From positions 1 through 64,000 of IMG/VR virus record IMGVR_UViG_3300050821_006485: DNA of 64,000 nt; one strand, 5' to 3'. Both the position numbers and the translations under genes were made by a program. The number at the start of each line of letters is the position of its first letter. Position 1 is the first letter of the stretch. The notes below the pieces were generated by a model that had not been told where the DNA came from, did no database searches, and worked only from the letters and a program-made list of their open reading frames with translations. This DNA comes from a virus. Positions 20,012-43,650 of the stretch are shown piece by piece.

Positions 20012-20019
20012 GACTCAAG

Positions 20020-21955: not shown

Positions 21956-21958
21956 AAT

Positions 21959-23795: not shown

Positions 23796-23807
23796 AGGAA
23801 GAAAACA

Positions 23808-24065
23808 ATGCATTACAAAAATGGCCGTGAAGCAAAGAACGGTGACAAGGTTGTTTTAATACCATCTTATGGTAGTCCGGTTATTGGAATCTTATATGAT
23901 GCGCAAGCTGGAAATGATTATTGCAACGGGAAAATAGCCCCGACTGCGCCGAATGATCCTTGCCCAAATCTGAAAGAAGTATTGCATTTGGAAGATGTGC
24001 TTAAAGCTTTGCCCGCCGACGTACCAAATACGTCTGTAGTTACGCAGAAACATCAGGAGAAATAA
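23808..24065 (+). CDS. conserved small phage protein, KOW-like start (85 aa)
   Basis: N-terminus MHYKNGREAKNGDKVVLI is a motif found in many small phage proteins, resembling a short SH3/KOW beta barrel. The rest (CNGKIAPTAP, VLHLEDVLKAL) also fits that family. GAAGAAAAC before ATG. Function unknown. Confidence 0.7.
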   Translation: MHYKNGREAKNGDKVVLIPSYGSPVIGILYDAQAGNDYCNGKIAPTAPNDPCPNLKEVLHLEDVLKALPADVPNTSVVTQKHQEK

Positions 24066-24584: not shown

Positions 24585-24593
24585 GAGATATTT

Positions 24594-25121: not shown

Positions 25122-25130
25122 GATATAAAG

Positions 25131-25292
25131 ATGCCTTATAAATCTAATGCACAAAGAAAGTTCTTTCACGCGAACGAAAAGAAAATGGAAGCGCAGGGCG
25201 TGGATGTCGGTGAGTGGGATGCCGCAAGTAAAGGCAAGAAGTTACCCGAGCGAGCGCCAAAGAAATTCACTTTTGCTAAAAAGGGAAAGTAA
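25131..25292 (+). CDS. conserved small phage protein MPYKS-type (53 aa)
   Basis: Starts MPYKSNAQRKFFHANEKKM, then WDAASKGKKLPERAPKK. This is a very widespread tiny phage protein whose function is unknown. TAA overlaps the next ATG (TAATG). It is below the usual length cut-off but clearly real. Confidence 0.85.
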   Translation: MPYKSNAQRKFFHANEKKMEAQGVDVGEWDAASKGKKLPERAPKKFTFAKKGK

Positions 25293-25483
25293 TGCTTGAC
25301 AAGGGCCAGGTATATTTCGAGCACCCCGCCGTAGGAACCGGGCAGCACTGCGGTCAGTGCATTCACTTTATCAAGGGCAAAAATAAGTGTGAAATTGTCA
25401 GCGGTGTTGTTAAGGCAGAAGATTGGTGTGAACGCTTTGAAAAACGAGTATCTAAGTTCCATCAAATAAGCAGGGAGACATGA
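25292..25483 (+). CDS. Cys-rich small protein, HiPIP-like pattern (63 aa)
   Basis: Four Cys in HCGQCIHFIKGKNKCEIVSG and DWCERF match the short high-potential-iron-protein-like proteins seen beside phage head genes. Whether it carries an Fe-S cluster or zinc cannot be told. Overlaps both neighbours by 1-4 bp, so coupled. Confidence 0.7.
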   Translation: MLDKGQVYFEHPAVGTGQHCGQCIHFIKGKNKCEIVSGVVKAEDWCERFEKRVSKFHQISRET

Positions 25484-25746
25484 TGCTGGGGATTGGTCGG
25501 GAAAAGGCTAAGTTGTTGCAGATTAACTCGGCATCTGTTAAGGGCGAACCTGGGACTGGATTTGAAAAGCGTAAACAGGGTGGAAAGTCTGGGCCGTTCG
25601 AATGTTCCAATTGTGAGCATTTTAAAAACGGAAATGCTTGCGACCAAAAAGACATGATGAAAAATTCCAAAGAACCTAAGCATCCAAATGGAACTATAAA
25701 GGTCTCTGGTCTTGACTGTTGCGATTATATTGAACGTGTAAAATAA
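25480..25746 (+). CDS. Cys-rich small protein (88 aa)
   Basis: Contains FECSNCEHFKNGNACDQKDMM and DCCDYIE, a Cys layout similar to the preceding gene but longer. The N-terminus is basic. Start MMLG (CAGGGAGACATG region). Probably another metal-binding companion of the head genes. Confidence 0.6.
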   Translation: MMLGIGREKAKLLQINSASVKGEPGTGFEKRKQGGKSGPFECSNCEHFKNGNACDQKDMMKNSKEPKHPNGTIKVSGLDCCDYIERVK

Positions 25747-25758
25747 ATTGGAGATAAG

Positions 25759-28455
25759 ATGGCAGAAAACGATACACCGGCAAATGCTCAGACTACCAAG
25801 AGCACGCCATCAAATGATCCCAATGATTTTCCTATAGGTTCCTTGGCGTCCTTCCCATATTCTCCAGAACCATTTGCTAAGCTCACTGATGCAGCTAAGG
25901 GCGCACTTATGGCCCTAGATGTAATTGCTACGAAGACAGATGTTGCAGCACGAAGATTAGAAGTTGAGCAAGCCTGGCAGGCTTTGCATTTCTCAAGGGG
26001 TTATCAGCATTTATTTAAAAGACGCGGCGGTGGTTGGGAATTGCCTGGAGAAGGTTCCGGCTTTAATAACGCTAAGAGCCATAGTAACCATGACGCCCAA
26101 TACGAAACTAATATTTATTCCACTAAAGGTGAGGATATAATTGTCGCAGCACTCTCCAGGGAAATTCCTAAGATGGAGTTTTTCCCAGCAAATCCTGAGT
26201 ATGCCCCAGATATTGTGGCGGCAGAAGAGAGTGAAAATTTTAAGCAAATTTGGAGTCGTAACAACAATCTACACGCCTTACTAGTTGAATGCTCTAGGAT
26301 TTTTTGGAACGAAGACCGTGTTCTCTTATGGACTCGCTACGAAATAAACGGACAAAAGTACGGGTTTGAGGAAGACAACCTTGAATCTCCGACAGTCCCT
26401 GAAGATGTTCTTTCTCCCCCAGATTCCGAGCCCACCGGTCAAGAAGGCCAGGAGGACTTTCTCGCGGCAGAAGAAACGCTTCTACCGGAAGGTACGACTG
26501 ATTCTGTGGAGGAATCTCCTGCCGAAGAACAAACCGAAGAGGCGGCAGAAAGCGATGCCGGAGGAGAGGAACTAGTTGACGCTTTGGAAGAAGTTGCGGA
26601 GAGAAAACCCTTGGGCAGAGAGATTACTACTGCTCACGGCAAGTTGGATCATAAGGTTCCGATTGCTGTAGACAACATGTGCGATATGCACTTTATTCAG
26701 TTGTATCAGGATACAGATGAAGCAGTCGCTAAGGCTATGTTTCCTTGGATCGCAGAAAAGATTCATGCTGGCTCAGATGGACAGTCCGAAGTTGAATTAG
26801 ACCGCATAGCACGTGAAAACGTGCGCCAAGCAGTATTAGGTTCGTATGTTACGGGAGATTCCCAGCAGCGTCACGTAGTCGTAAAATATACGTGGTTCCG
26901 GCCTTCGATGTTCATGGATAAATCCGTAAACGATGTTTGTAAAGCGGAGTTACTGGAGACATTCCCCAATGGTTGCCTGCTTGTTAAGGCAGGATCGGAG
27001 TACGCCTTCTCTCGCAATGAGAGCATGGACAAACACTTGGTAATCGGACATGCCTTGGGCGGCAAAGGGCAAAATAGGCGAGCGCTAGGCACGGCCATGA
27101 TCCCAATTCAGAAACGTGTGAACGACTGGGTTGACATCATGGATGATTTCTTCAAGCGTACTATTCCTAAGAAGTGGTACAACGCAGAGGCCTTCGATAT
27201 GCAAGCTATGAAGGATCAACCGAATATGCCAGGCAGTAGCGGATCGTTCCAACCGCAACCAGGATTGGCGTCTTCAGATCAGTACATGATGGTCGAGCCT
27301 ACTCCCCAGCCTCAAGCAGCTTTACCTGATTTCGTTAAGTGGTTTATTACAAGTTTGACTGAAGAAATTTCAGGAGCTCTGCCTTCTCTTTTTGGGAGCC
27401 CGACGAACACAGATACTGTAGGTGGAATTGCGATTCAGCGTGACCAAGCGTTACAAAGAATCGGTTGCCCTTGGAATAATATCCAAGATATGTTTGCGGA
27501 AGCCGCACTTCAAGCTGTATGGTGCGCAGCAGAATGCAGAGACGGCAAAAGAATTACTCAGAATATTCAGGGTAGAGGAAACGTATCGGTTAATACGGCT
27601 AACCTAGCGGGTAATGTTCTCTGTTATGCGGAATCGAATCCGGCCTTTCCAGAAAGTTGGCAGCAAAAAGAGGCGAAAATTTTGCAGCTTATTGATGGCA
27701 GTGCGAATATTCCCGATCTCGCAAAGTTCTTGTTCCACCCGATAAATTTGCCCGCGCTAGCAGACAGTATTCGCCTAAAGACTTTTAAAGTACCGGGTGC
27801 ATCTTCTATTACGAAACAGAAATCCGAGTTAGAGATACTTCTGCGTAGTGGACCAATGCCGAATCCAAAGGTTGTGCAGATGAAGCAGACTTTGGACGAA
27901 GCAACACAGGGAATGGCGTCTCATGTTACCAGTGGACAACCAATTCCGCCACAAGCCCCGCAGATGATGAATCAGTTGGAGCAGATGATAAAGTCCCTGC
28001 CTCCTACGGTCAGCACTGTCCCCGTGGCGCAAGATGAAAGCGAAGAGCACTTGATAGAAGCCGCTCAATGCTTGGAATGGGCAACTAGTGGAGAAGGTCA
28101 AAAATTTAAGTACGGACTGCCCAAACAAAAAGCGGCGTACGAAAATGTTTTGTTGCATTGGAAAGAGCATATGGAGATGGCTAAGAAAATTGCCGCCGCT
28201 AATGCTCCGTCAAATGTAAAGCCTCCGTCTGAGTCTATCTCCGTGGATGTAAGTAAGATGCCTGGGAATGTCGCTTCGCAAGCACTTGCTAAGATGGGTA
28301 TAGAAGCTACCCCTGCGGATTTTGCTCAGCATATGAATGAGCAAACTAATCAGGCCGTGCAGAAAAAGGCCGTACCCGAGGCTTTGAAAGGCCCGTCAGA
28401 TAAAACACCGCCCCCCGGACAGGGACAGGAACCTCCTAGACAGTTGCGGAGGTAA
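25759..28455 (+). CDS. portal protein (898 aa)
   Basis: Dodecameric portal that forms the DNA channel. Identified by size, position after terL and before scaffold/capsid, and segments such as EQAWQALHFSRGYQH, YETNIYSTKGEDIIVAALSR, KWYNAEAFDMQAMKD and GIAIQRDQALQRIGCPWNN, as in podovirus-type portals. An acidic low-complexity insertion lies around residues 215-270. The C-terminus is Pro/Gln-rich. TTGGAGATAAG precedes ATG. Confidence 0.85.
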   Translation: MAENDTPANAQTTKSTPSNDPNDFPIGSLASFPYSPEPFAKLTDAAKGALMALDVIATKTDVAARRLEVEQAWQALHFSRGYQHLFKRRGGGWELPGEGSGFNNAKSHSNHDAQYETNIYSTKGEDIIVAALSREIPKMEFFPANPEYAPDIVAAEESENFKQIWSRNNNLHALLVECSRIFWNEDRVLLWTRYEINGQKYGFEEDNLESPTVPEDVLSPPDSEPTGQEGQEDFLAAEETLLPEGTTDSVEESPAEEQTEEAAESDAGGEELVDALEEVAERKPLGREITTAHGKLDHKVPIAVDNMCDMHFIQLYQDTDEAVAKAMFPWIAEKIHAGSDGQSEVELDRIARENVRQAVLGSYVTGDSQQRHVVVKYTWFRPSMFMDKSVNDVCKAELLETFPNGCLLVKAGSEYAFSRNESMDKHLVIGHALGGKGQNRRALGTAMIPIQKRVNDWVDIMDDFFKRTIPKKWYNAEAFDMQAMKDQPNMPGSSGSFQPQPGLASSDQYMMVEPTPQPQAALPDFVKWFITSLTEEISGALPSLFGSPTNTDTVGGIAIQRDQALQRIGCPWNNIQDMFAEAALQAVWCAAECRDGKRITQNIQGRGNVSVNTANLAGNVLCYAESNPAFPESWQQKEAKILQLIDGSANIPDLAKFLFHPINLPALADSIRLKTFKVPGASSITKQKSELEILLRSGPMPNPKVVQMKQTLDEATQGMASHVTSGQPIPPQAPQMMNQLEQMIKSLPPTVSTVPVAQDESEEHLIEAAQCLEWATSGEGQKFKYGLPKQKAAYENVLLHWKEHMEMAKKIAAANAPSNVKPPSESISVDVSKMPGNVASQALAKMGIEATPADFAQHMNEQTNQAVQKKAVPEALKGPSDKTPPPGQGQEPPRQLRR

Positions 28456-28457
28456 TT

Positions 28458-29078
28458 ATGCCAGAGAAAACTTTGGTTGGTATTTTGCAGCGGCACGGGG
28501 ATACAGATACGAACGAGAAAAACCAGTTTCGTTCTAGACTTGATCCTCCGCTCAACGAAAAAGGCTTTTCGCAGGCGGAGCAGGCTTCCGATAACATTAT
28601 AAGAGACAAGTTTGAAATCAAGAGAATCATTAGCAGCCCTCTTTTGAGAGCAATGCAGACTGCTGATATCTTTAGTGAAAAGCTGGGATTACCTGTTTCT
28701 CAAGATCGGGGCCTTCTTTGCTGGGCTCTTGGCTTTTTATCTGGCAGAGATAAAGATGACTACTCAGACATTCTTGATTATTATGTGGACAACCCACATA
28801 AAGTAATTCCAGAGGGAGAATCTTTAGATGATCTTGAGCAAAGAACTTTTGAATTTTTCAACGAACATCTTAAAAATGAATTAACTCTTTTTGTCACGCA
28901 CACTTCAAATATCATCACGGTTGAGAACCTAGTGAATGGTAATCGAGAAGGGCGACCAGAAAGCGGTGAGTCTAGCGTAGATACTGGCGGAACAGTTGGT
29001 GTTTACGTAGACGATTCAGGAAAATATAGCACCGAGATTTTATTCGGTAACGAAAAAGAAGCGCAGTATGGAAGTTAG
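28458..29078 (+). CDS. histidine phosphatase (phosphoglycerate-mutase-like), 206 aa
   Basis: Has the catalytic LQRHGDTDTNEKNQF (RHG), then SSPLLRAMQTADIF (second Arg), PEGESLDDLEQR (acid loop) and LFVTHTSNI (second His), that is the complete histidine-phosphatase signature. It removes phosphates from small molecules or proteins; the substrate is unknown. Unusual place: 2 bp after the portal gene and before the scaffold, so made with head proteins. Confidence 0.85.
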   Translation: MPEKTLVGILQRHGDTDTNEKNQFRSRLDPPLNEKGFSQAEQASDNIIRDKFEIKRIISSPLLRAMQTADIFSEKLGLPVSQDRGLLCWALGFLSGRDKDDYSDILDYYVDNPHKVIPEGESLDDLEQRTFEFFNEHLKNELTLFVTHTSNIITVENLVNGNREGRPESGESSVDTGGTVGVYVDDSGKYSTEILFGNEKEAQYGS

Positions 29079-29103
29079 ACTCAGAAAGACCAGGAGATAA
29101 AAA

Positions 29104-30546
29104 GTGAGTGAATCAGTATTGGATTTTGCGGGACTAGAAACACAAGTGAGTACAGAAACTCAGGTTGAAACTCCAGAAGTTACTCAAGTTGAAACTCCAG
29201 AGACTACAACTACTCAGGAACCTACGGAGACAACTACAACCACAGAACCTAAGGTTGAGGGGGCAGAAAAAAAGCAACTTTATAACTCTGACGGTTCTCC
29301 TAAAGAGGAAGTTAAAAAAGAAGAGCCGCTTCCCGGCGGGAAGAACACTCCAGATTCCATACGTCGCGCATTAAAAATGGTGCGTGACGCCAACCCTCAG
29401 AATAAGGGTTTGGTAAAAGAGCTTCACGATGGCTGGGAACGTAGTGCGGCATACGCAAAGGAATTTCCCACGGTTCAGGAAGCTAGGAATGCAAAAAGTT
29501 TCATAGAACTCGTTGGGGGTCCCGAGGGATATGAGAAGCTTAATCAGACAGTTGAGAATATTAAAGCTAGCGACCAGCTTTTATACAACGGAGATGCAAC
29601 CCTCTTAGATAATATTATTGAGGATTTGAAATCAGAGGGCCGCATAGATGCCTTTGGAAAACTCGCCGCCCCGTTTTTAGACAAACTACGCGACTTGGAC
29701 AGAAAGTCATACAACGATACAGTAGCGCCCCATATTCTCAGTAACCTTGAGTCGGCCAACCTACCGGGAGCCTTAGCAGGCCTTGTGCAAGCGCTAAACG
29801 ATCCCGATCCAGCCAAGGCCGTAGCCGCCGCTAAAGAAATCGCTCAGGATATGAACGGTTGGTATAACAAGATTAAGCAGGAACACGCCGATAAGCTGAA
29901 GGCAGCTAAGGCGGAGCCCACACCTGAGCAACTGAAGTTCCAGAAGGAACGCGAAGAATTTACCAAGCAAAAGCAGGAGTTTGAGAAGGGTAAGCAAACC
30001 GAGTTCCAGAACGCGGTTGCTAGTGTACTAGAGAAGAGTAACAATCAGTTGCTAGGCAAATCCCTAGGTCCTTATTTGAAGATGGCGTATTTTAAGGAGT
30101 TCCCACGGACGGCACTTGTGGATTTAGGCAACGGTATTAAAAATAACTTGTATCAAGCCCTCAAAGCAAACAAGGACTATCAGCGCCAAATGGGTGCAAT
30201 GTGGAAAGAAAAATCGCCTAATAAAGATAAGATTAAAGAGTACCACGACGCAACCGTGGAGGGCATGGCAGAAGATGTTGTTCGGCAGACAATCGAGACC
30301 AGATATCCGGGATATGCTAAGGGCGGACAGGCCGCTACTCGCGTAGCCGCTGCCGCTACGAAGACCGCAGCGGTTAACAAGGCGGATGCCACGGCGGTTG
30401 TTACGGGCAAACCTCAGTACGTTGCCGAGAAGCCCAAGAATTTGAATCGAGAGATGGACCCGAAGTCATTTCTTGAGATCGCTGGAAAAGGATACGTTCC
30501 AGATGGTAAAGGCGGTCACCGTTTCGTGACCTGGAGAAAAGTTTAA
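29104..30546 (+). CDS. scaffold-like protein (480 aa)
   Basis: GTG start after CAGGAGATAAAAA. The N-terminal ~90 residues are Thr/Glu/Gln-rich and disordered (QVETPEVTQVETPETTTT). The rest is mostly helical with coiled coils (KFQKEREEFTKQKQEFEKGK) and a C-terminal KSFLEIAGKGYVP. Position before the capsid gene and composition are typical of capsid scaffolds. Confidence 0.75.
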   Translation: MSESVLDFAGLETQVSTETQVETPEVTQVETPETTTTQEPTETTTTTEPKVEGAEKKQLYNSDGSPKEEVKKEEPLPGGKNTPDSIRRALKMVRDANPQNKGLVKELHDGWERSAAYAKEFPTVQEARNAKSFIELVGGPEGYEKLNQTVENIKASDQLLYNGDATLLDNIIEDLKSEGRIDAFGKLAAPFLDKLRDLDRKSYNDTVAPHILSNLESANLPGALAGLVQALNDPDPAKAVAAAKEIAQDMNGWYNKIKQEHADKLKAAKAEPTPEQLKFQKEREEFTKQKQEFEKGKQTEFQNAVASVLEKSNNQLLGKSLGPYLKMAYFKEFPRTALVDLGNGIKNNLYQALKANKDYQRQMGAMWKEKSPNKDKIKEYHDATVEGMAEDVVRQTIETRYPGYAKGGQAATRVAAAATKTAAVNKADATAVVTGKPQYVAEKPKNLNREMDPKSFLEIAGKGYVPDGKGGHRFVTWRKV

Positions 30547-30584
30547 AATAGCTTTGCAGTTAAATCAATTTAGGAGAAACAATT

Positions 30585-30782
30585 ATGCCAGCAGTTCCAT
30601 TTGCATTTACTCGTGCGGGAAAACCTCTACAAGTAGGAGACGCTGTGTCAGTAATTGGCACAGTAACCGCCGTGTCGGGTTCAGGCCCCACCGCTTCCGT
30701 TACTGTCCAGTGGGCGGGTTCAGGTAATACTTCAGCAAACGTCCAGGCCCAAGATGTAGCAGCCGGTGGACAGACGCTCTAG
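30585..30782 (+). CDS. small beta-domain protein A (65 aa)
   Basis: Core GDAVSVIGTVTAVSGSGPTA followed by SVTVQWAG. The same ~35-residue beta unit recurs in 31159-31347 and twice in 31705-32067. Likely a small beta barrel, possibly a capsid-decorating protein given its place before the capsid gene. TTAGGAGAAACAATT before ATG. Confidence 0.65.
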   Translation: MPAVPFAFTRAGKPLQVGDAVSVIGTVTAVSGSGPTASVTVQWAGSGNTSANVQAQDVAAGGQTL

Positions 30783-30818
30783 TTTCGCGTAACTAAATTC
30801 AATTCAGGAGGTGCAACT

Positions 30819-30830
30819 ATGACGCTCTAA
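30819..30830 (+). other. minimal ORF ATG ACG CTC TAA with strong ribosome site
   Basis: CAGGAGGTGCAACT-ATG starts a three-codon frame. A second AGGAGG overlaps its stop and serves the next gene (TTG 30843). A similar ATG-TAA with AGGAGG lies at 31063-31068. Possible translational coupling or regulatory mini-ORFs. Confidence 0.45.
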
Positions 30831-30842
30831 GGAGGTCATAAT

Positions 30843-31028
30843 TTGCGCACACCAGAACAAAAACTAGCGACCAAGCAACGCAAGGCGGCGGAACGCTTGG
30901 CGCACCGAACCAAAGTGTTTACAAAACATCCGCCAAGCGTACGCTACGCCAAGGCAAAGTTTAAAAAAGGTACCAAGCGTCAACGCAAGAATCGTAAGCC
31001 CGCCGTGATAAAACTCGGCGTACAGTAG
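30843..31028 (+). CDS. small very basic protein (61 aa)
   Basis: TTG start after CTAAGGAGGTCATAA. More than a third of residues are Lys/Arg (TPEQKLATKQRKAAERLAHR; KAKFKKGTKRQRKNRK), so it probably binds nucleic acid, perhaps packaged DNA. Not recognised. Confidence 0.6.
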   Translation: MRTPEQKLATKQRKAAERLAHRTKVFTKHPPSVRYAKAKFKKGTKRQRKNRKPAVIKLGVQ

Positions 31029-31062
31029 TGTGGTTATCTTCCAGTAAGCAGGAGGTGATCCC

Positions 31063-31137
31063 ATGTAACAACATTTGGCATACAGCGGCCTATTCATAAG
31101 TATGCAGGGGAAGGGCTAAAACCCCTTCTCTGGCCGC
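31063..31137 (+). other. ATG-stop mini-ORF and structured spacer
   Basis: AGGAGGTGATCCC-ATG-TAA (31063-31068) is a start-stop with a near-perfect Shine-Dalgarno. It is followed by a stem GCGGCC (31085-31090) with GGCCGC (31132-31137) that encloses a GAAGGG/CCCTTC hairpin. Confidence 0.5.
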
Positions 31138-31158
31138 GTATATTGTGCGGAGGTACAA

Positions 31159-31347
31159 ATGTCGCAGAGTAGGGCACTATCAATTTCAGGAAAACCGGTT
31201 CAAAAGGGGGATTTTGTTTCCGTAACGGGCCAGATTGTTTCTATTTCTGGAACGGGACCCAATGCTGCTGCTACCATTAAGGCGCACGATACCGGCGCTA
31301 CTTTTACAATTCCGACCAGGGAGCTACACGCTTCACAATCACTTTAA
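31159..31347 (+). CDS. small beta-domain protein B (62 aa)
   Basis: Core KGDFVSVTGQIVSISGTGPN followed by AAATIKAHDTG, clearly related to protein A (30585) and to the doubled protein (31705). TGCGGAGGTACAA precedes ATG. Same inferred role. Confidence 0.65.
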   Translation: MSQSRALSISGKPVQKGDFVSVTGQIVSISGTGPNAAATIKAHDTGATFTIPTRELHASQSL

Positions 31348-31362
31348 ACAGAGGAGAAACGT

Positions 31363-31701
31363 ATGGAAAAACAACTATTATTTAGCCTAACCAAGAAGGA
31401 CTTTGTTATCCAGACGTTCTGCACTGGAGGCAAAGGCGGGCAGCATCGGAATGCCAAGCAAAACGGTGTGAGAATAATCCACCCGGCATCCGGGGCGCGT
31501 GCCGAGCACAGGGATGGTAGGGACCAAGGCAAAAACAAGGCCGAGGCCTTTGAAAAGTTGTCAGAAACCCCTGTTTTTAAGAAATGGCATAAGGCAGAGG
31601 TTGCTAGACGTTTAGGTCAGGTTAGAAGTGATGAAATCGAGGTAGAGCGGGCCGTAGATTTGGCTATGCATGATAAGAATCTAAAGGTTGAGGTACTTTA
31701 A
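31363..31701 (+). CDS. RF-1/ArfB-type GGQ domain protein (112 aa)
   Basis: Carries the peptidyl-tRNA hydrolysis motif in CTGGKGGQHRNAKQNGVRI. It is the catalytic domain 3 of class I release factors without codon-recognition domains. It lacks the basic tail that ArfB/YaeJ uses to enter the mRNA channel and ends acidic (DEIEVERAVDLAM). Stand-alone GGQ proteins are known in phages; the role (rescue of stalled ribosomes or release on phage mRNA) is unproven. GAGGAGAAACGT precedes ATG. Confidence 0.85.
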   Translation: MEKQLLFSLTKKDFVIQTFCTGGKGGQHRNAKQNGVRIIHPASGARAEHRDGRDQGKNKAEAFEKLSETPVFKKWHKAEVARRLGQVRSDEIEVERAVDLAMHDKNLKVEVL

Positions 31702-31704
31702 TCT

Positions 31705-32067
31705 ATGGCACAAGGAACCAATTACACAGGCGATGTAGTACTGGTTAACGATCAAGTTAGTATTTTAGGTATAGCCACGGCTATCTCTGGAATTGGCGTG
31801 ACCGCCGCCGTTACTGTTCAAACACAATTGGCCGATACTTTCACCACTCAGGCCGGTGACATGTTCGCTTTTCAAGATGACGTTGGTTCTTCGGAGGCAG
31901 AATCTACCGCAGGTAATGATTTTCAGGTGAATGACCAGGTAACCGTGAACGGTGTTGTGACTAATATCACAGGAAAAGGCCAAACCGCCCAATTAACCGT
32001 GCAGTTGTTCTTTTCTGGTAATTCCGTTGTGTGCAGCGCGGGGACCGTGTATAGTTCGGGTCACTAA
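31705..32067 (+). CDS. doubled small beta-domain protein C (120 aa)
   Basis: Two copies of the beta unit in one chain: NDQVSILGIATAISGIGVTA and NDQVTVNGVVTNITGKGQTA, each followed by a TVQ strand. With proteins A and B this makes a four-copy family beside the capsid gene. Candidate head decoration or stabilising protein. Confidence 0.65.
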   Translation: MAQGTNYTGDVVLVNDQVSILGIATAISGIGVTAAVTVQTQLADTFTTQAGDMFAFQDDVGSSEAESTAGNDFQVNDQVTVNGVVTNITGKGQTAQLTVQLFFSGNSVVCSAGTVYSSGH

Positions 32068-32069
32068 TT

Positions 32070-32237
32070 ATGGATTTTTTTACTAAAATGGAAGTTCTGT
32101 TTGCTAGAATGGATGAAGCTATGCACGTCCGCTCCCCGGAAGAAGCTAAGGCTAGGGTAGAGGAATTAAAACAAGAACTTGAAGGCTATTCTGATATTAT
32201 GAAAAAAGTTGTAAACGAAATGCTTAAAGAACTCTAG
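32070..32237 (+). CDS. small helical protein (55 aa)
   Basis: ATG 2 nt after the previous stop. Fifty-five residues (MDFFTKMEVLFARMDEAMHV ... MLKEL), acidic and entirely helical, likely a coiled coil. Directly followed by the 11-bp repeat array. Weak ribosome site; coupling expected. Confidence 0.6.
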   Translation: MDFFTKMEVLFARMDEAMHVRSPEEAKARVEELKQELEGYSDIMKKVVNEMLKEL

Positions 32238-32251
32238 GCGTTATAAACCTA

Positions 32252-32320
32252 GCGAGTGCTTGGCAAGTGCTAAGCGAAAGCAAAGCGAGTGCGGAGCGAA
32301 CGCGGAGCGAGTGCCAAGCC
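32252..32320 (+). repeat. tandem array of the 11-bp repeat (six units)
   Basis: Six consecutive 11-mers: GCGAGTGCTTG, GCAAGTGCTAA, GCGAAAGCAAA, GCGAGTGCGGA, GCGAACGCGGA, GCGAGTGCCAA, then a partial GCC. This is the cleanest array of an element found in many intergenic places and some gene ends of this genome. Confidence 0.9.
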
Positions 32321-32327
32321 AGAACGG

Positions 32328-32352
32328 GAGGGTGACTTTCACACCCTCTTGT
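32328..32352 (+). terminator. terminator-like hairpin before the homing endonuclease
   Basis: GAGGGTG/CACCCTC, perfect 7-bp stem with a 7-nt loop, followed by TTGTT. Confidence 0.5.
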
Positions 32353-32373
32353 TCGTCCTATGAAAGGGGACAA

Positions 32374-33003
32374 ATGAACGGGATAATTTACAAAGTAACA
32401 AATATTGAATCTGGAACGTCTTACATTGGACAAACCACAAAAACATTGAAACAGAGGTGGACAGAGCATATTTATGATGCCACCGGTAATAGGAGCAAGG
32501 ATAAAGGATGTTATTTTCACCTTGCTATAAAGAAATATGGCCCAGAGGCATTTAAGTTGATTGTTCTGCAAGAATGCTTAAATAAAGAGGCGTTGGACTC
32601 AGTAGAAAAGTTCTATATTTCCCATTTTAATACGGTTCGTCCCTTTGGTTATAATTTGTCTCTCGGAGGCTCTGGAGTAATGCACGGTAGGAAAATGAGT
32701 GCAGAAGCCAGAGCAAAAATTAGCGCGGGGCTTATGGGAAGACCGGGAGCACAATTTAGTCATACCCCAGAAGCCAGAGCAAAAATAAGCGCATCCCTTA
32801 TGGGTAACAAAAGGTCAGTAGGTAGAAAACTTTCAGATGAAACTAAGGCTAAGATGAGAGCCGCTCATTTAGGAAGAACCTACAAAAAGAAAGACAAAAG
32901 TTTAGATTCAAGCAACGATGCTCATGATAGTGGCGAAAACACTTTAAATATGCGGATTGAGAAAGTTGCGAGTACTAAAGATGACTCAGCGATAGGCCAG
33001 TAA
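32374..33003 (+). CDS. GIY-YIG homing endonuclease with NUMOD3 repeats (209 aa)
   Basis: ATG at 32374 has AAAGGGGACAA upstream. Core GIIYKVTNIESGTSYIGQTT and catalytic Arg in LKQRWTEH, then NUMOD3 repeats (GRKMSAEARAKISAGLMGR type). Free-standing between the small head genes and the four-intron capsid gene, so it may cut intron-less capsid alleles. AT-rich. Confidence 0.9.
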   Translation: MNGIIYKVTNIESGTSYIGQTTKTLKQRWTEHIYDATGNRSKDKGCYFHLAIKKYGPEAFKLIVLQECLNKEALDSVEKFYISHFNTVRPFGYNLSLGGSGVMHGRKMSAEARAKISAGLMGRPGAQFSHTPEARAKISASLMGNKRSVGRKLSDETKAKMRAAHLGRTYKKKDKSLDSSNDAHDSGENTLNMRIEKVASTKDDSAIGQ

Positions 33004-33060
33004 AATAACTCAGAGGTTTTACTACGTGGCACTTCGTAGTACAGAAGGAAAATAATAACT

Positions 33061-35330
33061 ATGCCATTACTTGAGGCTGCTGTAGAAGCAGTCGAACTTG
33101 ATGCATTTGCTAAGGAAATCCCTAGGTAATAAGGTCGGGGATTTTATGCCAAAAATACTTAGGACCTAGTATTTCATGGAACTACAGCATATTCCATGTT
33201 CAAGGCAGAGGCTCAATATTAGGGCCTCGATAAACCCGCTCTAATTGTCTCGAAATCTGAAATGACAACGAGGCGGAAGTCAAGTTTATTTGTAACAAAA
33301 CTTGACACCGTGAGAGATCAAGCGAGAGGGAGCCAAAAGGCTATGCAATGATCCGAGCTGCATGAAACAGTAACATGCAGAGGTTAGCAGAAATGACTAA
33401 TCCAAAATACAGTAACAAAGCTGACTAATATTCCTGTGAGCAATCAGTCACAGGCAGGCGGAGTAACTCGTCCGTCATTCCGCATCCCGTTTAGGGTGCA
33501 GGCTGGCGCGTCTATCTCCCAGGGAACCGGAAATGCCGACTCCATGAACCGAGGCACTGGAAGTAAATGGGCTTCCTTTGCGCTAGCACCTGTTTACCTA
33601 TTTAACGTCTAAAAATTTCATGGACGTTTAAAATTTCGCTGTATCGGTGGAACGCCTGAAAAGGCCAATACCGAGGCAACCTGCCTAGGCAGAGAGTCCG
33701 TAACGACTACACGCGAAACAGGCATAACGCTTGATGATATAGTCTGAACTGCATGGTAACATGCAGAAGGCAGCAGAAATGACTGCCTCATAACCTAAAG
33801 TTATGTAACAATTTTTGGTGAAATTTCCTGGCTCGCCCAGGCTTCCACGGATAGCAAGCAACGCGGTCTCTTCGCCGTAAAAGCCCAGGAGATGAAGAAC
33901 TCTTTGGATGCTGCAATGCAGGGCATCGAGGGGTTAATAAATTCCGACGGGAGTGGTATGATCGACCAAATCCCGGCCACCGCAGTCATTAACAACGGTA
34001 CGGGTACTGGTGACAGTACCTCCAGCATCGTTGGGATGAACGTGGCGGTAGCATTCACCGACCAACAGACGGTAACGTTCTGGACGGTTGGTGGTGTTCA
34101 GCGTACGACCGGCGTATCCTCGGCAGTAGTTAGCTACTCCGATGGACCGAGCAACACTTTGTTCTTCAGCACCGCCCTACCGACCGGTGTGGCAGTAACG
34201 GATTACATCGTGGTGAACGGCGCGACCTACGGCTCTGGTGCCTCTATTTTGGGCATCAAGGCTTGGGACGTGAACAGCAATACCGGGAGTATCGCCGGGC
34301 TTAACCGAGCGACTTACCCAGGCCGTCTTAGCACGCCTACCATTAACTTGGCGGGTGCCGCTATTACGCCAGGCATTGCCCAGCGAGCAGAAGTGCTCCT
34401 AGGCCGTGCGTTGGGTCCTGATGCCGACAGCATTAAGTCCGGCATTTGGTATGGGCCGCCCGAGCAAGCCTTTGCGCAGAGCAATCTGATGTGAACTAAA
34501 CGCATCATCAACTGGTAACAGTTGAAAGTAAACCAAGAGAATTCGGTGGAACACCCAATAAGGTCAATACCGAGCCGAGCCTGTTAGCGCAGGAAGGTGT
34601 AACGACTATCTCGAAAGAGAGTAGGGTCTAAGTAGACTCGAAGCACTTGGCACCCGTAAGGGTTGAAGATATAGTCTGTTCTCGCAGGTAACTGTGAGAG
34701 GGTAAGCGGAAACGGCTTGCCCGCAACGAACAAGACAACGTTCAAATTGCGAACGCACAGGAAATCAAGGGCGATAAAACGCTAGACATGTCCAAGAAGT
34801 ATTTTTCGGATTAACAATAGTCCCCTCAATCGGAAACGGTTGAATGAAAACCGAGAGAATTCAGGGAAACGCCTTAGTGGCCAATCCTGAGCCGAGCCTC
34901 AAAAGAGGAAGGTGCAACGACTATCCTGTAATGGGAGTAGGGGTCAGTGACCTCGAAGCACTTGGGACCCGTAAGGGTTATGATATAGTCTGAGCTTGTA
35001 GGTAACTACAAGAGTTTAGATGGAAACGATCTAAACGTAACGTAACTGACGTTTGGTGGCCGTAAGTATCACAAGAGTTGGACAGCAACCGCAAGCCGAA
35101 TGGATTTGCTGGTGCTAGACAACTGGTACATAGGAGAGCTGTCACCGCTAGAACTGTACGATTTTGGCGGCGGCAATGTGGTAGCTCCCGTGCCCGATAT
35201 TGGCAACGGGACTTCAAATGGTAGTTATCTTACCTCCCACATGTTTGCTTATAACACATGCTTCAACCTGGCTAATGCAGCTCCGCGAGCTGGCTTATAC
35301 GTTCAGAATGCAGCTGTGCCAACTGTGTAG
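33061..35330 (+). CDS. major capsid protein in five exons (about 441-454 aa)
   Basis: CDS is join(33061..33213, 33424..33610, 33818..34492, 34741..34811, 35052..35330). The junctions are in frame and read MFKAEA|TNIPVSN, YLFNV|CEISWL, SNLM|FQIANAQ and KKYFSD|FGGRKYHKSW. The product is an HK97-fold capsid protein of the type RVQAGASISQGTGNADS ... AQEMKNSLDAAMQGIEGLI ... GRKYHKSWTATASRMDLLVL. Exon 1 contains a 39-nt stretch (33124-33162) with three in-frame stops between KEIP and DLVFHGTTAYSMF, described separately. GGAAAATAATAACT precedes ATG. Confidence 0.88.
33124..33162 (+). other. 39-nt in-frame interruption inside capsid exon 1
   Basis: The capsid frame reads ...AKEIP, then AGG TAA TAA ... 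TAG, then DLVFHGTTAYSMFKAEA in the same frame. The ends can pair: CCTAGGT (33121-33127) with ACTTAGG (33157-33163). It is far too short for a group I intron. A double frameshift (+1 near 33121, then -1 near 33163) would also avoid the stops. How the full protein is made is unresolved. Confidence 0.6.
33214..33423 (+). other. group I intron 1 of the capsid gene (210 nt)
   Basis: P1: exon end GAGGCU pairs with guide GGCCTC (33223-33228), U-G at the splice site. P10: AATATTAG just before the guide pairs with CTAATATT of the next exon. Ends with G 33423. Its core differs from the other five introns but shares GCTGCATG..TAACATGCAG and GTTAGCAGAAATGACTAA with intron 2. No ORF. Confidence 0.85.
33611..33817 (+). 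other. group I intron 2 of the capsid gene (207 nt)
   Basis: P1: exon AACGUCU pairs with guide GGACGTT over 7 bp. P10: AAATTTCAT pairs with exon GTGAAATTT over 9 bp. Core ATCGGTGGAACGCC...CAATACCGAGG, CGTAACGACTAC and GATATAGTCTG; omega-G 33817. No ORF. Confidence 0.92.
34493..34740 (+). other. group I intron 3 of the capsid gene (248 nt)
   Basis: P1: exon CUGAUGU pairs with guide GCATCA. P2 CAACTGGTAACAGTTG. Core ATTCGGTGGAACACC, AATACCGAGCCGAGC, GGTGTAACGACTATC, GATATAGTCTG. Omega-G at 34740 gives the in-frame junction ATG TTT CAA; the alternative G 34728 would create a stop. The 3' end is the least certain point. Confidence 0.85.
34812..35051 (+). other. group I intron 4 of the capsid gene (240 nt)
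   Basis: P1: exon GGAU pairs with guide GTCC. P2 TCAATCGGAAACGGTTGA. Core ATTCAGGGAAACGCC, CAATCCTGAGCCGAGC, GGTGCAACGACTATC, GATATAGTCTG; omega-G 35051. Joining gives GAT TTT GGT GGC, continuing the capsid frame. Only 71 nt of exon separate it from intron 3. Confidence 0.88.
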
Positions 35331-35348
35331 ATGTAATTGAAAACAAAG

Positions 35349-35378
35349 AACTTACACGCTTTTTAATTGTAAGTTTTG
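35349..35378 (+). terminator. terminator after the capsid gene
   Basis: AACTTACA/TGTAAGTT 8-bp stem followed by TTGT. A second hairpin, GTGGGAG/CTCCCAC, lies about 40-70 nt further on, just before the HNH gene. Confidence 0.55.
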
Positions 35379-35461
35379 TACTTGTACTATAACGACGGTT
35401 ATGGTATTCTAAAAGTGGGAGGAGACCTTGAACTTCTCCCACTATATTTCAAGGAGAACGA

Positions 35462-35989
35462 ATGGAAAGCAAAGTTTGTACCAATTGCAGTCTAGAAAAA
35501 CCATTTTCTGAATTTCAAGAAAATGAAAGATATGCGGACGGGTATTCTACGTGGTGTAAGGAGTGCCATAAGCAAGCTTCTACAAAAAGTAGAAAAAAGT
35601 TATCTAAAGAAAATCCTAATTATCACAAAGATAATGCTCTTAAACACAAACATAAAATAAGTTTAGAACAGTTTGAAGAAAAGCAAGTAGAGCAGGGCGG
35701 ACATTGCGCTTTGTGTTTGGCTACTAAAAGCAGTAATGGTGATAGACTAGGAGTAGACCACGATCACAGAATTTGTCCCGGAAAGTATGCTTGCGATAAG
35801 TGTCGAAGAGGTTTATTGTGCAGTTCTTGTAATGCTCGATTGGGCTACCTAGAGGGGTTTTTAGAAGAAGCTTTTGTATTTCCTTTCTTAGGCAGAGGAC
35901 AGTGGATACGGAAAGCAGTAGAATACTTAAACTACTATAAGAATGCATTATATCAAGCGTCTCTTTTGGAGTCTACCCAATGCAAGTAA
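35462..35989 (+). CDS. HNH homing endonuclease, endonuclease VII type (175 aa)
   Basis: N-terminal zinc module (CTNCSLEKPFSEF ... WCKECHKQ), then HCALC, GVDHDHRICPG and RGLLCSSCNARLGYLEGF, the active-site and Zn-binding pattern of recombination endonuclease VII / HNH. Free-standing directly after the capsid gene, another candidate driver of its introns. CAAGGAGAACGA precedes ATG. AT-rich. Confidence 0.85.
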   Translation: MESKVCTNCSLEKPFSEFQENERYADGYSTWCKECHKQASTKSRKKLSKENPNYHKDNALKHKHKISLEQFEEKQVEQGGHCALCLATKSSNGDRLGVDHDHRICPGKYACDKCRRGLLCSSCNARLGYLEGFLEEAFVFPFLGRGQWIRKAVEYLNYYKNALYQASLLESTQCK

Positions 35990-36534
35990 CTCCTCTGACC
36001 ATAAAGCAAGCTAATGAATTGATTTCCAGATTGCATCGGCACCACAAACCAGTAGTAGGACACAGATTTTCCATAGGACTTCTCAACCAAGGGGTTCTTG
36101 TAGGCGCTGCCGTAGTAGGAAGGCCAGTTGCCCGTGAAGTAGAACAATATACCATAGCAGAGGTAACTCGGCTTGTGACGGACGGAACGCCTAACGCTTG
36201 CTCAATGCTTTATTCAGCGTGTGCACGGGCAGCCAAGGCTATGGGGTTTACGAAGATTCAGACCTATATTTTGGACAGCGAACCGGGAACTAGTTTAAAA
36301 GCCTCTGGCTGGAAACTAGAAGGCAAAACGGCAGGCGGTAATTGGAACCATAGTTGGCGTAAGGGTCGTAGAGAAGATCAACCCATGGAACCCAAATCTA
36401 GATGGGGTTTGGTTCTAAACTCGGTAGAGGAAGTCCAATGTCAACCACCTTCTGCTTCGCCCGTGACCACGACAACAATTACAGAGAATCTCACAAGCCT
36501 GTGCCAGGAAAATACGATGGTCTCCCCATCGTAA
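35980..36534 (+). CDS. XF1762-family protein (184 aa)
   Basis: Recognised by HRHHKPVVGHRFSIGLL, VGRPVAREV, TRLVTDGTPNACSMLY and SLKASGWKLEG. The family is common in phages and resembles GNAT acyltransferases in layout (acceptor-binding strand, then a glycine loop), but the activity is unproven. Overlaps the HNH stop by 10 bp. The Ser/Thr-rich last 35 residues overlap the next gene in another frame and may be a late extension. Confidence 0.8.
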   Translation: MQVTPLTIKQANELISRLHRHHKPVVGHRFSIGLLNQGVLVGAAVVGRPVAREVEQYTIAEVTRLVTDGTPNACSMLYSACARAAKAMGFTKIQTYILDSEPGTSLKASGWKLEGKTAGGNWNHSWRKGRREDQPMEPKSRWGLVLNSVEEVQCQPPSASPVTTTTITENLTSLCQENTMVSPS

Positions 36535-36644
36535 CCTGTGCTTGGTGTGGAAGAACTTTAGAATCTACTCAGGAGACTCAGCATGTTCATAGCGCCCAAG
36601 TTCCTCAAAGAGTACCTAAGCACTCGCAAGGCACGTCGCGCTAA
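36438..36644 (+). CDS. small CxxC protein overlapping XF1762 (68 aa)
   Basis: ATG at 36438 follows AGAGGAAGTCCA. Contains TCAWCGRTLESTQ, a CxxC knuckle. It overlaps the previous gene by 97 bp and the next by 62 bp in different frames, which is unusual even for phage. Coding nature inferred from ribosome site and composition. Confidence 0.5.
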   Translation: MSTTFCFARDHDNNYRESHKPVPGKYDGLPIVTCAWCGRTLESTQETQHVHSAQVPQRVPKHSQGTSR

Positions 36645-36789
36645 TAACGCCGCCTTCTGGTCTATGATTAACGCCTATATTTACGTGCAGAATCTTCCGT
36701 GTAGGAACAATCGAGAAGATGTGGCCGCGTCGGACGCATTGCGTATTATTCACTTAGCGCTGTTAGAGCTGGAGAAAAGCCTTAAATGA
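36583..36789 (+). CDS. small helical protein (68 aa)
   Basis: CAGGAGACTCAGC precedes ATG, the standard ribosome site of this cassette. Basic N-terminus, two or three helices, ending LALLELEKSLK. Overlaps the next ATG by 4 bp. Unknown. Confidence 0.6.
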   Translation: MFIAPKFLKEYLSTRKARRANNAAFWSMINAYIYVQNLPCRNNREDVAASDALRIIHLALLELEKSLK

Positions 36790-37058
36790 GCGCCATCGGC
36801 TGGCTTTATAGGAAGTTTAAGATTTTTGCCCATAAGCATAATTGGCATCAGATGGAGCCAAACCCTAATCTAGAGCGCGGCAAAATTCATTATTGGTGCC
36901 ATTGGTGTGGTATCAGGGCGGTTGAAAATGTTCCGTATTTTGATTTTGAATTAAGTGTCGGAACTCTTTTAGAAAACCACGAAGCTGGTAAAATACCCGG
37001 AATGGACATGAAAACTTATGAAAAGTACTACAAGTCTAAAATAAAGTCATTGGTATAA
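36786..37058 (+). CDS. small zinc-knuckle protein (90 aa)
   Basis: Central HYWCHWCGIRAVENVPY gives a CxxC after several His; N-terminus amphipathic (AIGWLYRKFKIFAHKH). Unknown function; coupled to the previous gene. Confidence 0.6.
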   Translation: MSAIGWLYRKFKIFAHKHNWHQMEPNPNLERGKIHYWCHWCGIRAVENVPYFDFELSVGTLLENHEAGKIPGMDMKTYEKYYKSKIKSLV

Positions 37059-37074
37059 ACACTCAGGAGACTCA

Positions 37075-37497
37075 ATGGAAATCACAGCAGGACGCATAGT
37101 ATTGTATAGGCTATCCGAGGTAGATGTCACGGCAATCGGTAAGCGCGGAAACGGCCACAAAGCTGGGGACATTCTGCCTATGATTGCAGTACGAGTTTGG
37201 CCAGACCAATCCGTAAACGGCCAAGTGTTTATTGATGGACAGGGAACACAGTTTGTGAATACTCGCCGGGAAGGTACCGAGGATGGTACTTGGCATTGGC
37301 CTGTGCATAAACAAGACCCAACGCTTTATAACCATGTAGAAATTACATCCGGCGCAGGCAATTCCCCGCTTTATGGGGATAATTCAGAGAAGATAGCCAC
37401 TACTTTTGAAGTCCTAGCAGACAAATTAAAGGAGACTCAACATGCCAGCAAAAAAGAACAAAACCAAGAAAGTTGCCAGGCAATCGCCCAGAAGTAG
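37075..37497 (+). CDS. hypothetical protein (140 aa)
   Basis: Beta-rich (RIVLYRLSEVDVTAIGK; PMIAVRVWPDQSVNGQV; GTWHWPVHKQDP) and resembles short phage proteins of the MEITAGRIVLY type. The last ~18 residues overlap the next gene in another frame. CAGGAGACTCA precedes ATG. Confidence 0.65.
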   Translation: MEITAGRIVLYRLSEVDVTAIGKRGNGHKAGDILPMIAVRVWPDQSVNGQVFIDGQGTQFVNTRREGTEDGTWHWPVHKQDPTLYNHVEITSGAGNSPLYGDNSEKIATTFEVLADKLKETQHASKKEQNQESCQAIAQK

Positions 37498-37774
37498 CGT
37501 AGGTTCAACCCGTACTCCTTGCACCTGCCAGTATAACCATAGAATCTCCAAGGCATTTGATGAGAGTTTCGATAAGCTAATTGGCGTGGAAGGTTTGGAA
37601 GAATACCACACGGCCTTGGTTCACTCCGATAAATTTGACGACATTATGGAAGCCTTGGGAGAAGATGATAACGATCCGTATTTGGTGATAGCAGACGCCG
37701 TGCGTATCGGTTTTGACGCAGGAAAAAGAATGAACGAGTGCGATAAGCTCGAAGCGATGGTCGGCTATAAATGA
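37442..37774 (+). CDS. hypothetical protein with basic N-terminus (110 aa)
   Basis: Starts MPAKKNKTKKVARQ, then a CTC Cys pair and an acidic helical body (EALGEDDNDPYLVIADAV). AAGGAGACTCAAC is its ribosome site. Overlaps the previous gene by 56 bp and the next by 4 bp. Unknown. Confidence 0.6.
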   Translation: MPAKKNKTKKVARQSPRSSVGSTRTPCTCQYNHRISKAFDESFDKLIGVEGLEEYHTALVHSDKFDDIMEALGEDDNDPYLVIADAVRIGFDAGKRMNECDKLEAMVGYK

Positions 37775-38502
37775 AGTTTCCAATTAGTTTCATAAACCAT
37801 AGTACGGTAGTTTCCGACGCGGAAGCGAAGATTGTAATGGGCCATTTGCAGACCCAGGTAAGCCGGGATTTCGCTCCGATTTGGGGTGTAGACGCCCAGT
37901 TGTTTTTTGTTTCTGCTTCGGGAACTCCTAACCCCGCGTATTGGCAACTCGTGCTCCTAGACGACGCAGACGCGGCGAACGCTCTGGGATACCATGAACT
38001 AACTTCAGCGGGATTACCCCTTGGCAAAGTGTTTGTGAAGACCACGGCGCAAGCTAAGGGCAAGTGGTCGGTAACCGCATCTCACGAATTATTGGAGATG
38101 CTGATTGATCCCGATATCAACCTCACGGTGTTCGTTCAGGACTCTAATACTTCGGGCCGTATATACGCCTACGAAGTTTGCGATGCGGTTGAAGACGACA
38201 GCTTGGGCTACAATATATATTCGGCTACGGTGTCCGATTTCGTCACCCCAGCATGGTTCGAAGCGCAGGGCTCGTCTTTAAGTCCTAAGTTTGATTTCAT
38301 GGGCCACCTCACTAAACCTTTTGCTCTCGCCTTGAACGGCTACATAGGAATCTTCGACGCGACCGCAGGTACCGGCTGGCAGCAGCTTATGGGTATGCAA
38401 GGCAAGGTCGGGAAGTTCGGAGAGAATAGCAAAGGTGGAGAGGAAGCTAGAAACAAGACGCGTACCATTGGTATGCAGGATCGACGCAGGAGTAAGAAAT
38501 AA
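37771..38502 (+). CDS. putative zinc metallopeptidase-like protein (243 aa)
   Basis: Contains TASHELLEMLIDPDI, an HExxxE motif followed by YAYEVCDAVEDD and TVSDFVTPAWFE. Similar proteins with SHELLEMLxDP occur in soil bacteria and their phages and are thought to be peptidase-like. It sits directly upstream of the lysozyme gene, so a role in lysis or virion entry is possible but not shown. Basic C-terminal tail (RRRSKK). Confidence 0.6.
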   Translation: MKFPISFINHSTVVSDAEAKIVMGHLQTQVSRDFAPIWGVDAQLFFVSASGTPNPAYWQLVLLDDADAANALGYHELTSAGLPLGKVFVKTTAQAKGKWSVTASHELLEMLIDPDINLTVFVQDSNTSGRIYAYEVCDAVEDDSLGYNIYSATVSDFVTPAWFEAQGSSLSPKFDFMGHLTKPFALALNGYIGIFDATAGTGWQQLMGMQGKVGKFGENSKGGEEARNKTRTIGMQDRRRSKK

Positions 38503-38948
38503 TGGGGGCTATCACAAACACCCCAGACCAACTAAAAAGAGACGAAGGGCTACGTTTACAAGTTTACATCGACAGTACCGGCCACCGCAGCATTGGCTAC
38601 GGCCACAATATCGACGCTTCGCCGCTTCCCTTTGATGTGTCCAACGGTATAACTTTACAGCAGGCCTACAATATCCTTGACAATGATATAAACGTTACAA
38701 GGGCGGCTATTTATGCCGCGTTGCCTTGGGTACGATCTTTGTCCGAACCTAGATTCGGAGTGGTGGTGAACATGGGCTTTAATCTAGGCGTGCCGGGTTT
38801 GCTAAAATTTCACCACACGTTGGCGGCGCTACAAGCCAGAGATTATGCACTAACCGCAGAGGGTATGAGAAATTCTCTGTGGTACCGACAAGTAGGAGAC
38901 CGAGCAAGGAGACTCGTGATACAAATGGAGACAGATAGATGGCAGTAA
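38502..38948 (+). CDS. T4-type lysozyme, endolysin (148 aa)
   Basis: Glycoside hydrolase 24 muramidase. Catalytic Glu in KRDEGLRLQVYIDSTGHRSIGYGHN with the E-x8-D-x5-T spacing, then the fold-typical VNMGFNLGVPGL. Cleaves peptidoglycan at lysis. No signal peptide, so export depends on a holin; the next gene is a holin candidate and overlaps by 10 bp. Confidence 0.92.
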   Translation: MGAITNTPDQLKRDEGLRLQVYIDSTGHRSIGYGHNIDASPLPFDVSNGITLQQAYNILDNDINVTRAAIYAALPWVRSLSEPRFGVVVNMGFNLGVPGLLKFHHTLAALQARDYALTAEGMRNSLWYRQVGDRARRLVIQMETDRWQ

Positions 38949-39319
38949 TACTTGTACCACCTGATCCCACAACTGTAAACGCATGGATAACGATCCTTAC
39001 ACCGATAGCCATTGCAATATCAACCATAGTAACCTCATTAGGAATTAAATGGGCACAGCAGGCCGCCGAAAGGGCTAATTTGGCAGCTATAAATGCTAAA
39101 GCAGCCGCCGATGCTTCCAGAATAGCTGAAGCAAAATCCTCAGTTAAACTAGATGAAATTCATACGGCAGTAAACTCCGGGTATAGTGAGTCCTTAAACA
39201 TAGGAGCAACCGCCCTGGAAAAGGTTGCCGAATTGACAAATAAACCGGAAGACGCCGAGTTGGCTAAGGCAGCCAGGATTGTATCGGATACTCATGCTGC
39301 TGGAGGAAATAAAAAGTGA
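38939..39319 (+). CDS. putative holin or lysis membrane protein (126 aa)
   Basis: One strong transmembrane segment (ITILTPIAIAISTIVTSLGI, residues ~17-36) followed by an Ala-rich coiled coil and a polar tail. Overlap with the lysozyme gene and this topology make it a candidate class III-like holin or i-spanin-like protein. No specific family recognised. Confidence 0.6.
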   Translation: MAVILVPPDPTTVNAWITILTPIAIAISTIVTSLGIKWAQQAAERANLAAINAKAAADASRIAEAKSSVKLDEIHTAVNSGYSESLNIGATALEKVAELTNKPEDAELAKAARIVSDTHAAGGNKK

Positions 39320-39573
39320 GGAGAAAAGTTTTAGCACTAGTTTTTTGCGTAGCCTTGGCATCGGAAGCCTTGGCAGTTGACAGTAAATCGCTCTTTATAG
39401 GCATCGGAATAGGCCTAGGTCTTTATACCTACCAAGGCACCCGTACACACGTGTTTCTACCCGCAGCACACGCCGTACAGCGTACGATTAGACCGGTTCC
39501 TCAGGATAAGATTGATAAGGCGAATCGAAAAGCAGCAAAACTTGCAAGGAAACAAAACAAGGAGAAGGATTAA
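39316..39573 (+). CDS. small exported/membrane protein (85 aa)
   Basis: GTG start overlapping the previous stop. N-terminus RRKVLALVFCVALASEALA is a signal peptide with an ALA cleavage site, then a hydrophobic Gly-rich stretch and a Lys-rich tail. Part of the lysis cassette, perhaps a spanin-type component. Confidence 0.55.
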   Translation: MRRKVLALVFCVALASEALAVDSKSLFIGIGIGLGLYTYQGTRTHVFLPAAHAVQRTIRPVPQDKIDKANRKAAKLARKQNKEKD

Positions 39574-40169: not shown

Positions 40170-40197
40170 ACAAATTAGTGAAAGTAGGAATAAAAAT

Positions 40198-41223: not shown

Positions 41224-41239
41224 ATTAAACTTTGCTTGG

Positions 41240-41322: not shown

Positions 41323-41349
41323 TTAGTAAATAACTCAGGAGACTCAGAA

Positions 41350-43630: not shown

Positions 43631-43650
43631 TAGACTTAGGAGAAACAAAA

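Follow-up and report, generated by a model that had tools for sequence, protein, structure and literature searches.

A stretch of viral DNA contains an array of about six similar 11-bp units, and more units of this kind are found elsewhere in it. The locus raises the question of whether the array is a local repeat or part of a signal that extends over the genome. The window analyzed here covers positions 1-64000 of a phage contig of 101,202 bp (IMGVR_UViG_3300050821_006485); the remainder of the contig was also analyzed. Gene calls on the contig are automatic, and include a tailed-phage terminase, a DNA polymerase, a primase/helicase, UvsX and ribonucleotide reductase. A 27-bp tandem repeat (CCAGCACCAACACCGGC...) is located at the start of the contig (window 1-152) and is a probable assembly break. 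The contig remains unclosed: at the other end, the near-identical contig G011 continues for a further 2,061 bp. No gap was found across the regions compared between the two. The cumulative GC skew turns at record positions 13112 and 84114, where leftward and rightward gene blocks switch.

The 11-bp array and the CYNRG dyad

Six consecutive 11-mers are found at 32252-32317: GCGAGTGCTTG GCAAGTGCTAA GCGAAAGCAAA GCGAGTGCGGA GCGAACGCGGA GCGAGTGCCAA. At a lag of 11 bp, 42 of 62 positions in 32248-32320 are identical, compared to a mean of 17.0 and a maximum of 30 in 10,000 shuffles. The original prediction described arrays of a degenerate 11-mer, GCGAGTGCYWR, in both orientations, and all the arrays it listed are present. 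In the window, GCGAGTGC occurs 25 times, compared to 1.28 expected, and dinucleotide-preserving shuffles never contained more than three copies. The exact array is specific to this phage. Searches with it gave three stray single matches in 85,000 bacterial and archaeal GTDB genomes and four in IMG/VR, indicating that there is no shared repeat family. Beyond these stray matches, the same unit array was not found elsewhere as a mobile or shared bacterial (REP-like) repeat, and a literature search on 11-bp phage repeats found no description. This agrees with the earlier remark that the sequence corresponds to no named element.

Expectation-maximisation on the units indicated that the conserved part is the join between them, a palindromic pentamer C-Y-N-R-G, and that the 6-bp spacer is looser. 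Instances include CTTAG, CTAAG, CCAAG, CCTAG and CTTGG. The 11-bp arrays are thus real, but the conserved part that carries the phase is the CYNRG dyad and not GCGAGTGC. The units had also been seen as filling intergenic DNA. In the 101-kb contig, 19 of 30 exact copies of GCGAGTGC are indeed intergenic, with intergenic DNA making up about 20% of the sequence; however, phased sites run throughout the coding DNA as well. The arrays and clusters are listed in the table.

Table. Arrays and clusters of CYNRG dyads or 11-bp units, and one candidate gene. Positions are those of the window unless stated otherwise.
Position	Strand	Feature
843..905		Longest CYNRG array, intergenic; six dyads, spacings 11,12,11,12,12
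1070..1388		Intergenic unit cluster, both orientations
2411..2437	+	Three dyads, 11-bp spacing exact
2552..2654	-	Intergenic units (2552-2570); four dyads in a run, 11-bp spacing exact (2617-2654)
3389..3415		Three dyads, 11-bp spacing, within a predicted ORF
4553..4590		Four dyads, 11-bp spacing exact
11653..11746	-	Units upstream of the DNA polymerase gene and at its start
12352..12401		Intergenic units
32248..32320	+	Named array, about six 11-bp units, flanked by a 55-aa ORF and a gene for a GIY-YIG-type homing endonuclease
34283..34331		Five dyads, spacings 12,10,12,10, in a coding exon of the clade's most conserved gene
43048..43074		Three dyads, 11-bp spacing exact, within a gene
48953..48979		Three dyads, 11-bp spacing exact, within a 1223-aa ORF
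61718..61744		Three dyads, 11-bp spacing exact, within a 1421-aa ORF
1..64000		Phased CYNRG field, genome-wide (synonymous-shuffle pair counts)
record 98360-99076 (L004:14360-15076), outside the window	-	238-aa clade-conserved early protein of no recognised family

Over the whole contig, the spacings between CYNRG sites show peaks at 10-12 bp (45, 98 and 54), 21-24 bp and about 30-36 bp, and troughs at 5-8, 15-20 and 25-29 bp. The fitted period is 10.2-10.9 bp, and the phasing decays over a few turns. CYNRG ranks first for excess at lags 10-12, with a z of 18.1, in an unbiased scan of a few thousand palindromic IUPAC patterns. The best pattern in the same scan reached 4.1 in E. coli and 4.4 in lambda. 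The phasing is not a generic pyrimidine-purine effect. The C...G flanks are required, and YNR flanked by G, A or T does not have a CYNRG-like phase. Among short steps, AAA/TTT, TA and GGC/GCC were run. In the phased phages AAA/TTT has ratios of 0.92-1.13 at lags 10-12, that is, no phasing, and TA and GGC/GCC have no comparable phasing. Since AAA/TTT and TA are unphased, the CYNRG signal is not A-tract curvature.

Several other elements were noted in the window. Adjoining the longest array, a 13-bp dyad, TCTCANTNTGAGA, occurs three times within 84 bp (window 915-998; when one mismatch is allowed, 0.74 matches are expected in 64 kb). This trio is likely an operator cluster. Short paralogous proteins encoded at window 30585-32067 have a 'VGDxVSVxGxVTxxSG'-like pattern in common, which is repeated across the clade. 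The most conserved clade gene, one of whose exons contains five dyads, probably encodes the major capsid protein, an assignment made without a family match. Five group I introns were identified with Rfam (window 20205-20422, 33600-33766, 34483-34698, 34803-35012 and 57400-57612), three of which surround this gene. Parts of three introns are 86-89% alike, suggesting that they spread within the genome. A gene for a TROVE/vWA (Ro60-like) RNA-binding protein is located at window 14899-16296, near a tRNA gene cluster at 16.7-17.6 kb.

Helical phasing of CYNRG inside genes and among relatives

As a null model for coding DNA, synonymous codons were shuffled gene by gene, so that the proteins stayed the same. 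In the whole contig, coding DNA contains 58 CYNRG pairs at lag 11, compared to 17.3 in these shuffles (z 10.5), with further excesses at lag 22 (z 6.3) and lag 32 (z 5.0) and no significant excess at lags 14-20; the shuffle loses codon-pair context, and the comparison of one lag with another in the real sequence is independent of it. For coding DNA in the window, 1000 synonymous shuffles gave 31.6 pairs at lags 10-12 (sd 5.3, maximum 50), compared to 75 observed. The values at lags 21-24 and 31-36 are 70 compared to 39.4 and 87 compared to 46.4. At the control lags of 15-18, 31 pairs were found and 32.0 expected. Intergenic DNA is phased more strongly than coding DNA. Phasing is above expectation in 51 of 56 testable genes, and in the three phased phages described below the excess is about 2-3-fold in most 10-kb bins, with a few bins near or below 1.5. 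These results show that CYNRG sites keep helical phase over three to four turns independently of the encoded protein.

In all three phased phages, neighboring CYNRG sites with no site between them are enriched at 20-24, 30-36 and 41-46 bp. This enrichment of multi-turn gaps indicates that the sites are aligned on a helix face, and that contact between adjacent sites is not the only factor. Because the excess extends across the genome, a local packaging or replication signal, one of the functions suggested originally, is unsupported. The phased sites may have a genome-wide role in packaging or condensation.

About 90 related loci were found through the terminase and the probable capsid protein. 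The sample numbers suggest that many of them come from peat and soil metagenomes. A search of GTDB genomes for the host with the conserved probable capsid protein found no relative. Phasing at lags 10-12 in coding DNA was compared in this phage and ten relatives. It is strong in this phage (z 10.1), in G001 (124/46, z 10.8) and in G014 (184/67, z 16.3). Weaker phasing is found in G018 (z 3.1), G015 (2.7), G002 (2.4), G017 (2.0) and G003 (1.6), and no excess in G013 (0.0), G012 (-1.3) and G016 (-1.7). Of the 61 clade loci with a length of 8 kb or more, 11 have a z above 3, and some of these 11 share contigs. Terminase identity is only about 60% for the two strongly phased relatives. Comparison with related phages, as proposed originally, therefore identified two distant relatives with CYNRG phasing, but the exact 11-mer array is in neither.

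The preferred step is 11 bp in this phage, 12 bp in G001 and 10-11 bp in G014. The spacer sequence differs as well, GCGAGTGC here and GGTCAACC-like in G014. The distribution of phasing is patchy: on the terminase tree, G014 (z 16) is the sister of G013 (z 0). CYNRG is above synonymous expectation only in phages with phasing (rank correlation 0.99 in 11 genomes), a correlation that is partly built in because pair counts grow with site density. Among a few control genomes, CYNRG phasing is absent from E. coli, lambda, phi29 and Pf-WMP3.

A possible reader protein and alternative explanations

The analysis suggested a distributed sequence code, in which C-Y-N-R-G sites would lie on one helix face at steps of about 11 bp in nearly all genes, with greater density and regularity in some intergenic arrays. 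Selection on phase could arise from a symmetric DNA-binding protein, a dimer of which would read the 5-bp dyad with its pyrimidine-purine step. Dimers at successive turns would coat, wrap or bend the viral DNA. The reader would be an architectural protein like p6 of phage phi29, but with a real sequence preference in which C...G is recognised, and may be encoded by either the phage or the host. Dense intergenic arrays may be nucleation or high-occupancy sites. Both the role of the reader and that of the arrays are inferred. We consider a sequence-reading architectural protein of this kind somewhat more likely than not. A protein-binding phased array was among the options raised originally, and is the one favored by the sequence, on a genome-wide scale that the first reading had not seen.

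An ordinary tandem repeat could in principle also give an 11-bp step, if a functionless unit had spread into intergenic DNA by polymerase slippage or copying. The intergenic runs are tight, with exact 11-bp spacing, and resemble near-identical units; the spacers form a phage-specific 'dialect', and the exact array is confined to this phage. In genes, however, identical paired dyads number 10 compared to 9.4 expected, 12 compared to 9.5 and, in G014, 21 compared to 13.4 (sd 3.6), so identity is not beyond chance, although slightly raised in G014. The pairs are spaced by 10-12 bp with every reading frame represented, gaps of two to four turns are enriched with no intervening site, and an 11-bp slip within a gene would break its frame. 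For the coding component, slippage is refuted by these non-identical, variably spaced pairs. The slippage-prone filler of the original prediction may explain the growth of the tightest intergenic arrays but not the phased, non-identical sites inside genes, and we consider it an improbable account of the whole. Pairs of CYNRG could instead be small hairpin stems in transcripts, as the dyad is able to self-pair across a 6-nt loop. Complementary pairs in genes are rarer than chance (5 compared to 8.2, 4 compared to 10.3 and 8 compared to 13.3), short loops (lags 5-8) are not enriched, and spacings of two and three turns have no meaning for hairpins. As the gene pairs are neither identical nor complementary beyond chance, 11-bp duplications and hairpin stems both fail, and the latter is very improbable. 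Amphipathic helices, with about 3.6 residues or 11 bp per turn, are known to produce ~11-bp periodicity in coding DNA generally, and could impose it here through the codons. This explanation is refuted by the loss of the signal on synonymous shuffling with proteins fixed, and intergenic DNA is phased more strongly; we give it almost no weight.

The signal could also be an unusually strong case of the general ~11-bp dinucleotide or A-tract periodicity of genomes. Dinucleotide periods near 11 bp are selected in many genomes, including some lytic Erwinia phages (PMC7537859). Against this, AAA/TTT and TA are unphased in the phased phages, the signal is a specific pentamer bounded by C and G with a 2.5-5-fold excess, and phages generally lack strong curvature-type periodicity (PMC3431218). 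We find this explanation unlikely, if slightly less so than slippage. The remaining alternative, that a host nucleoid protein or global repressor reads the code and the phages adapt to it, is a version of the architectural-protein model and compatible with it. No matching phage gene was found, and a host reader would explain the patchy distribution on the terminase tree and the weak phasing in intermediate relatives. Exact 11-bp triplets in stray bacterial genomes, which are not known hosts, argue against it: compared to the reversed control, Nonomuraea (185/150) and Sorangium (62/47) have little excess, and a third genome has few sites (33/6). A host reader is a tentative possibility, and equally serious is the version in which the reader is a phage-encoded architectural protein. 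There, selection on synonymous sites and spacers would put the dyad on one helix face as a genome-wide, sequence-specific 'chromatin code' with a lineage-tuned step (10-11, 11 or 12 bp), and the protein would assemble along the whole genome; this we consider just as tentative.

Candidate phage readers of the sequence-specific architectural type were searched for in the clade. No match to HU (PF00216) was found above the cut-off in 11 clade records. The same holds for RHH_1 (PF01402), which has no match in the three strongly phased phages (G000, G001 and G014). No tblastn match to p6 in the clade was better than E=4, a search that a diverged homologue could escape. By phylogenetic profiling, no gene of evident DNA-binding type is confined to the phased phages. 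The only gene found, apart from fragments and antisense ORFs, encodes a PNKP-type HAD phosphatase homologue (window 4978-5424, minus strand); of the phages compared, only the three with strong phasing share it. A gene for an RNA ligase is located in the remainder of the contig at L004:7844-9046. The patchy phasing and the lack of a phage DNA-binding gene that tracks the phased phages are evidence against the reader model.

Two clade-conserved early proteins were modeled with AlphaFold. The model of a 134-aa protein has no significant fold match. That of the 238-aa protein has no significant Foldseek match, and in VIA-align the DNA-binding domains of ParB, Spo0J and Noc are at the top (Spo0J, Z 10.2, rmsd 3.1, 115 residues), a Z that can arise between helical folds. 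Its putative recognition helix is nearly unchanged in the unphased G013. For this reason the 238-aa protein, with its predicted ParB/Spo0J/Noc-type domain, is only a weak candidate for the CYNRG reader.

Comparison with known systems

R1 ParR, Arc and MetJ are small proteins that bind short sites, one per helical turn. The stbDRs bound by StbA of R388 are similar, 9 bp long with 2-bp gaps, that is, 11 bp (PMC3098194). These plasmid partition and ribbon-helix-helix operator arrays resemble the CYNRG arrays in having short, symmetric or pseudosymmetric sites one turn apart. Unlike them, which are local, the CYNRG sites are genome-wide and include genes, and no RHH_1 match was found in the phased phages. 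The periodicity of bacterial A-tract curvature has a similar helical phase of about 11 bp, but the phased motif here is not an A-tract. HU-type bending systems differ in that no phage-encoded HU family protein was found above the cut-off in the 11 clade records.

The best working analogue of the proposed reader is the phi29 p6 protein, an architectural protein that coats and wraps the phage genome. Its monomers contact DNA every 12 bp, and those of GA-1 p6 every 11 bp (PMC10899789). The step thus varies among related phages, as the CYNRG spacing does here, and provides a precedent for species-specific spacing. What recurs every 10-12 bp over the genome here is a sequence site. The p6 protein is said to read bendability and no specific sequence, whereas the C...G flanks are needed here, and no p6 homologue was matched in the clade. 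CYNRG is unphased in phi29 DNA, which is coated by p6, indicating that a coat protein need not leave a mark of phasing.

Closest to our observations is the selected ~11-bp dinucleotide periodicity found in genomes of all domains, for which an unidentified binding partner was proposed (Atzinger and Lawrence 2020, PMC7537859). Both have the same period, extend over genes and spacers, and are independent of the protein. The helical-period excess across coding DNA here, unexplained by protein sequence, is what identifies such selected periodicity. The differences are that the phage has a defined dyad pentamer with a 2.5-5-fold excess and arrays of up to six sites, that its spacing depends on the relative, that sister phages lack the signal, and that AAA/TTT and TA are unphased. 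Genomes have long been known, for decades, to carry helical-period signals, with neither a motif nor a reader defined, and phages were thought generally to lack strong ones. The CYNRG excess at one turn is measurable in a single 100-kb genome. With an explicit motif whose spacing and strength vary between relatives, the reader of genomic periodicity is now testable. The results also show that a DNA-level constraint acting across the genome can shape the synonymous sites of a phage. If a dedicated phage reader exists, this would be close to a new kind of system. The CYNRG phasing fits a much sharper, motif-resolved and lineage-variable form of the known selected ~11-bp periodicity.
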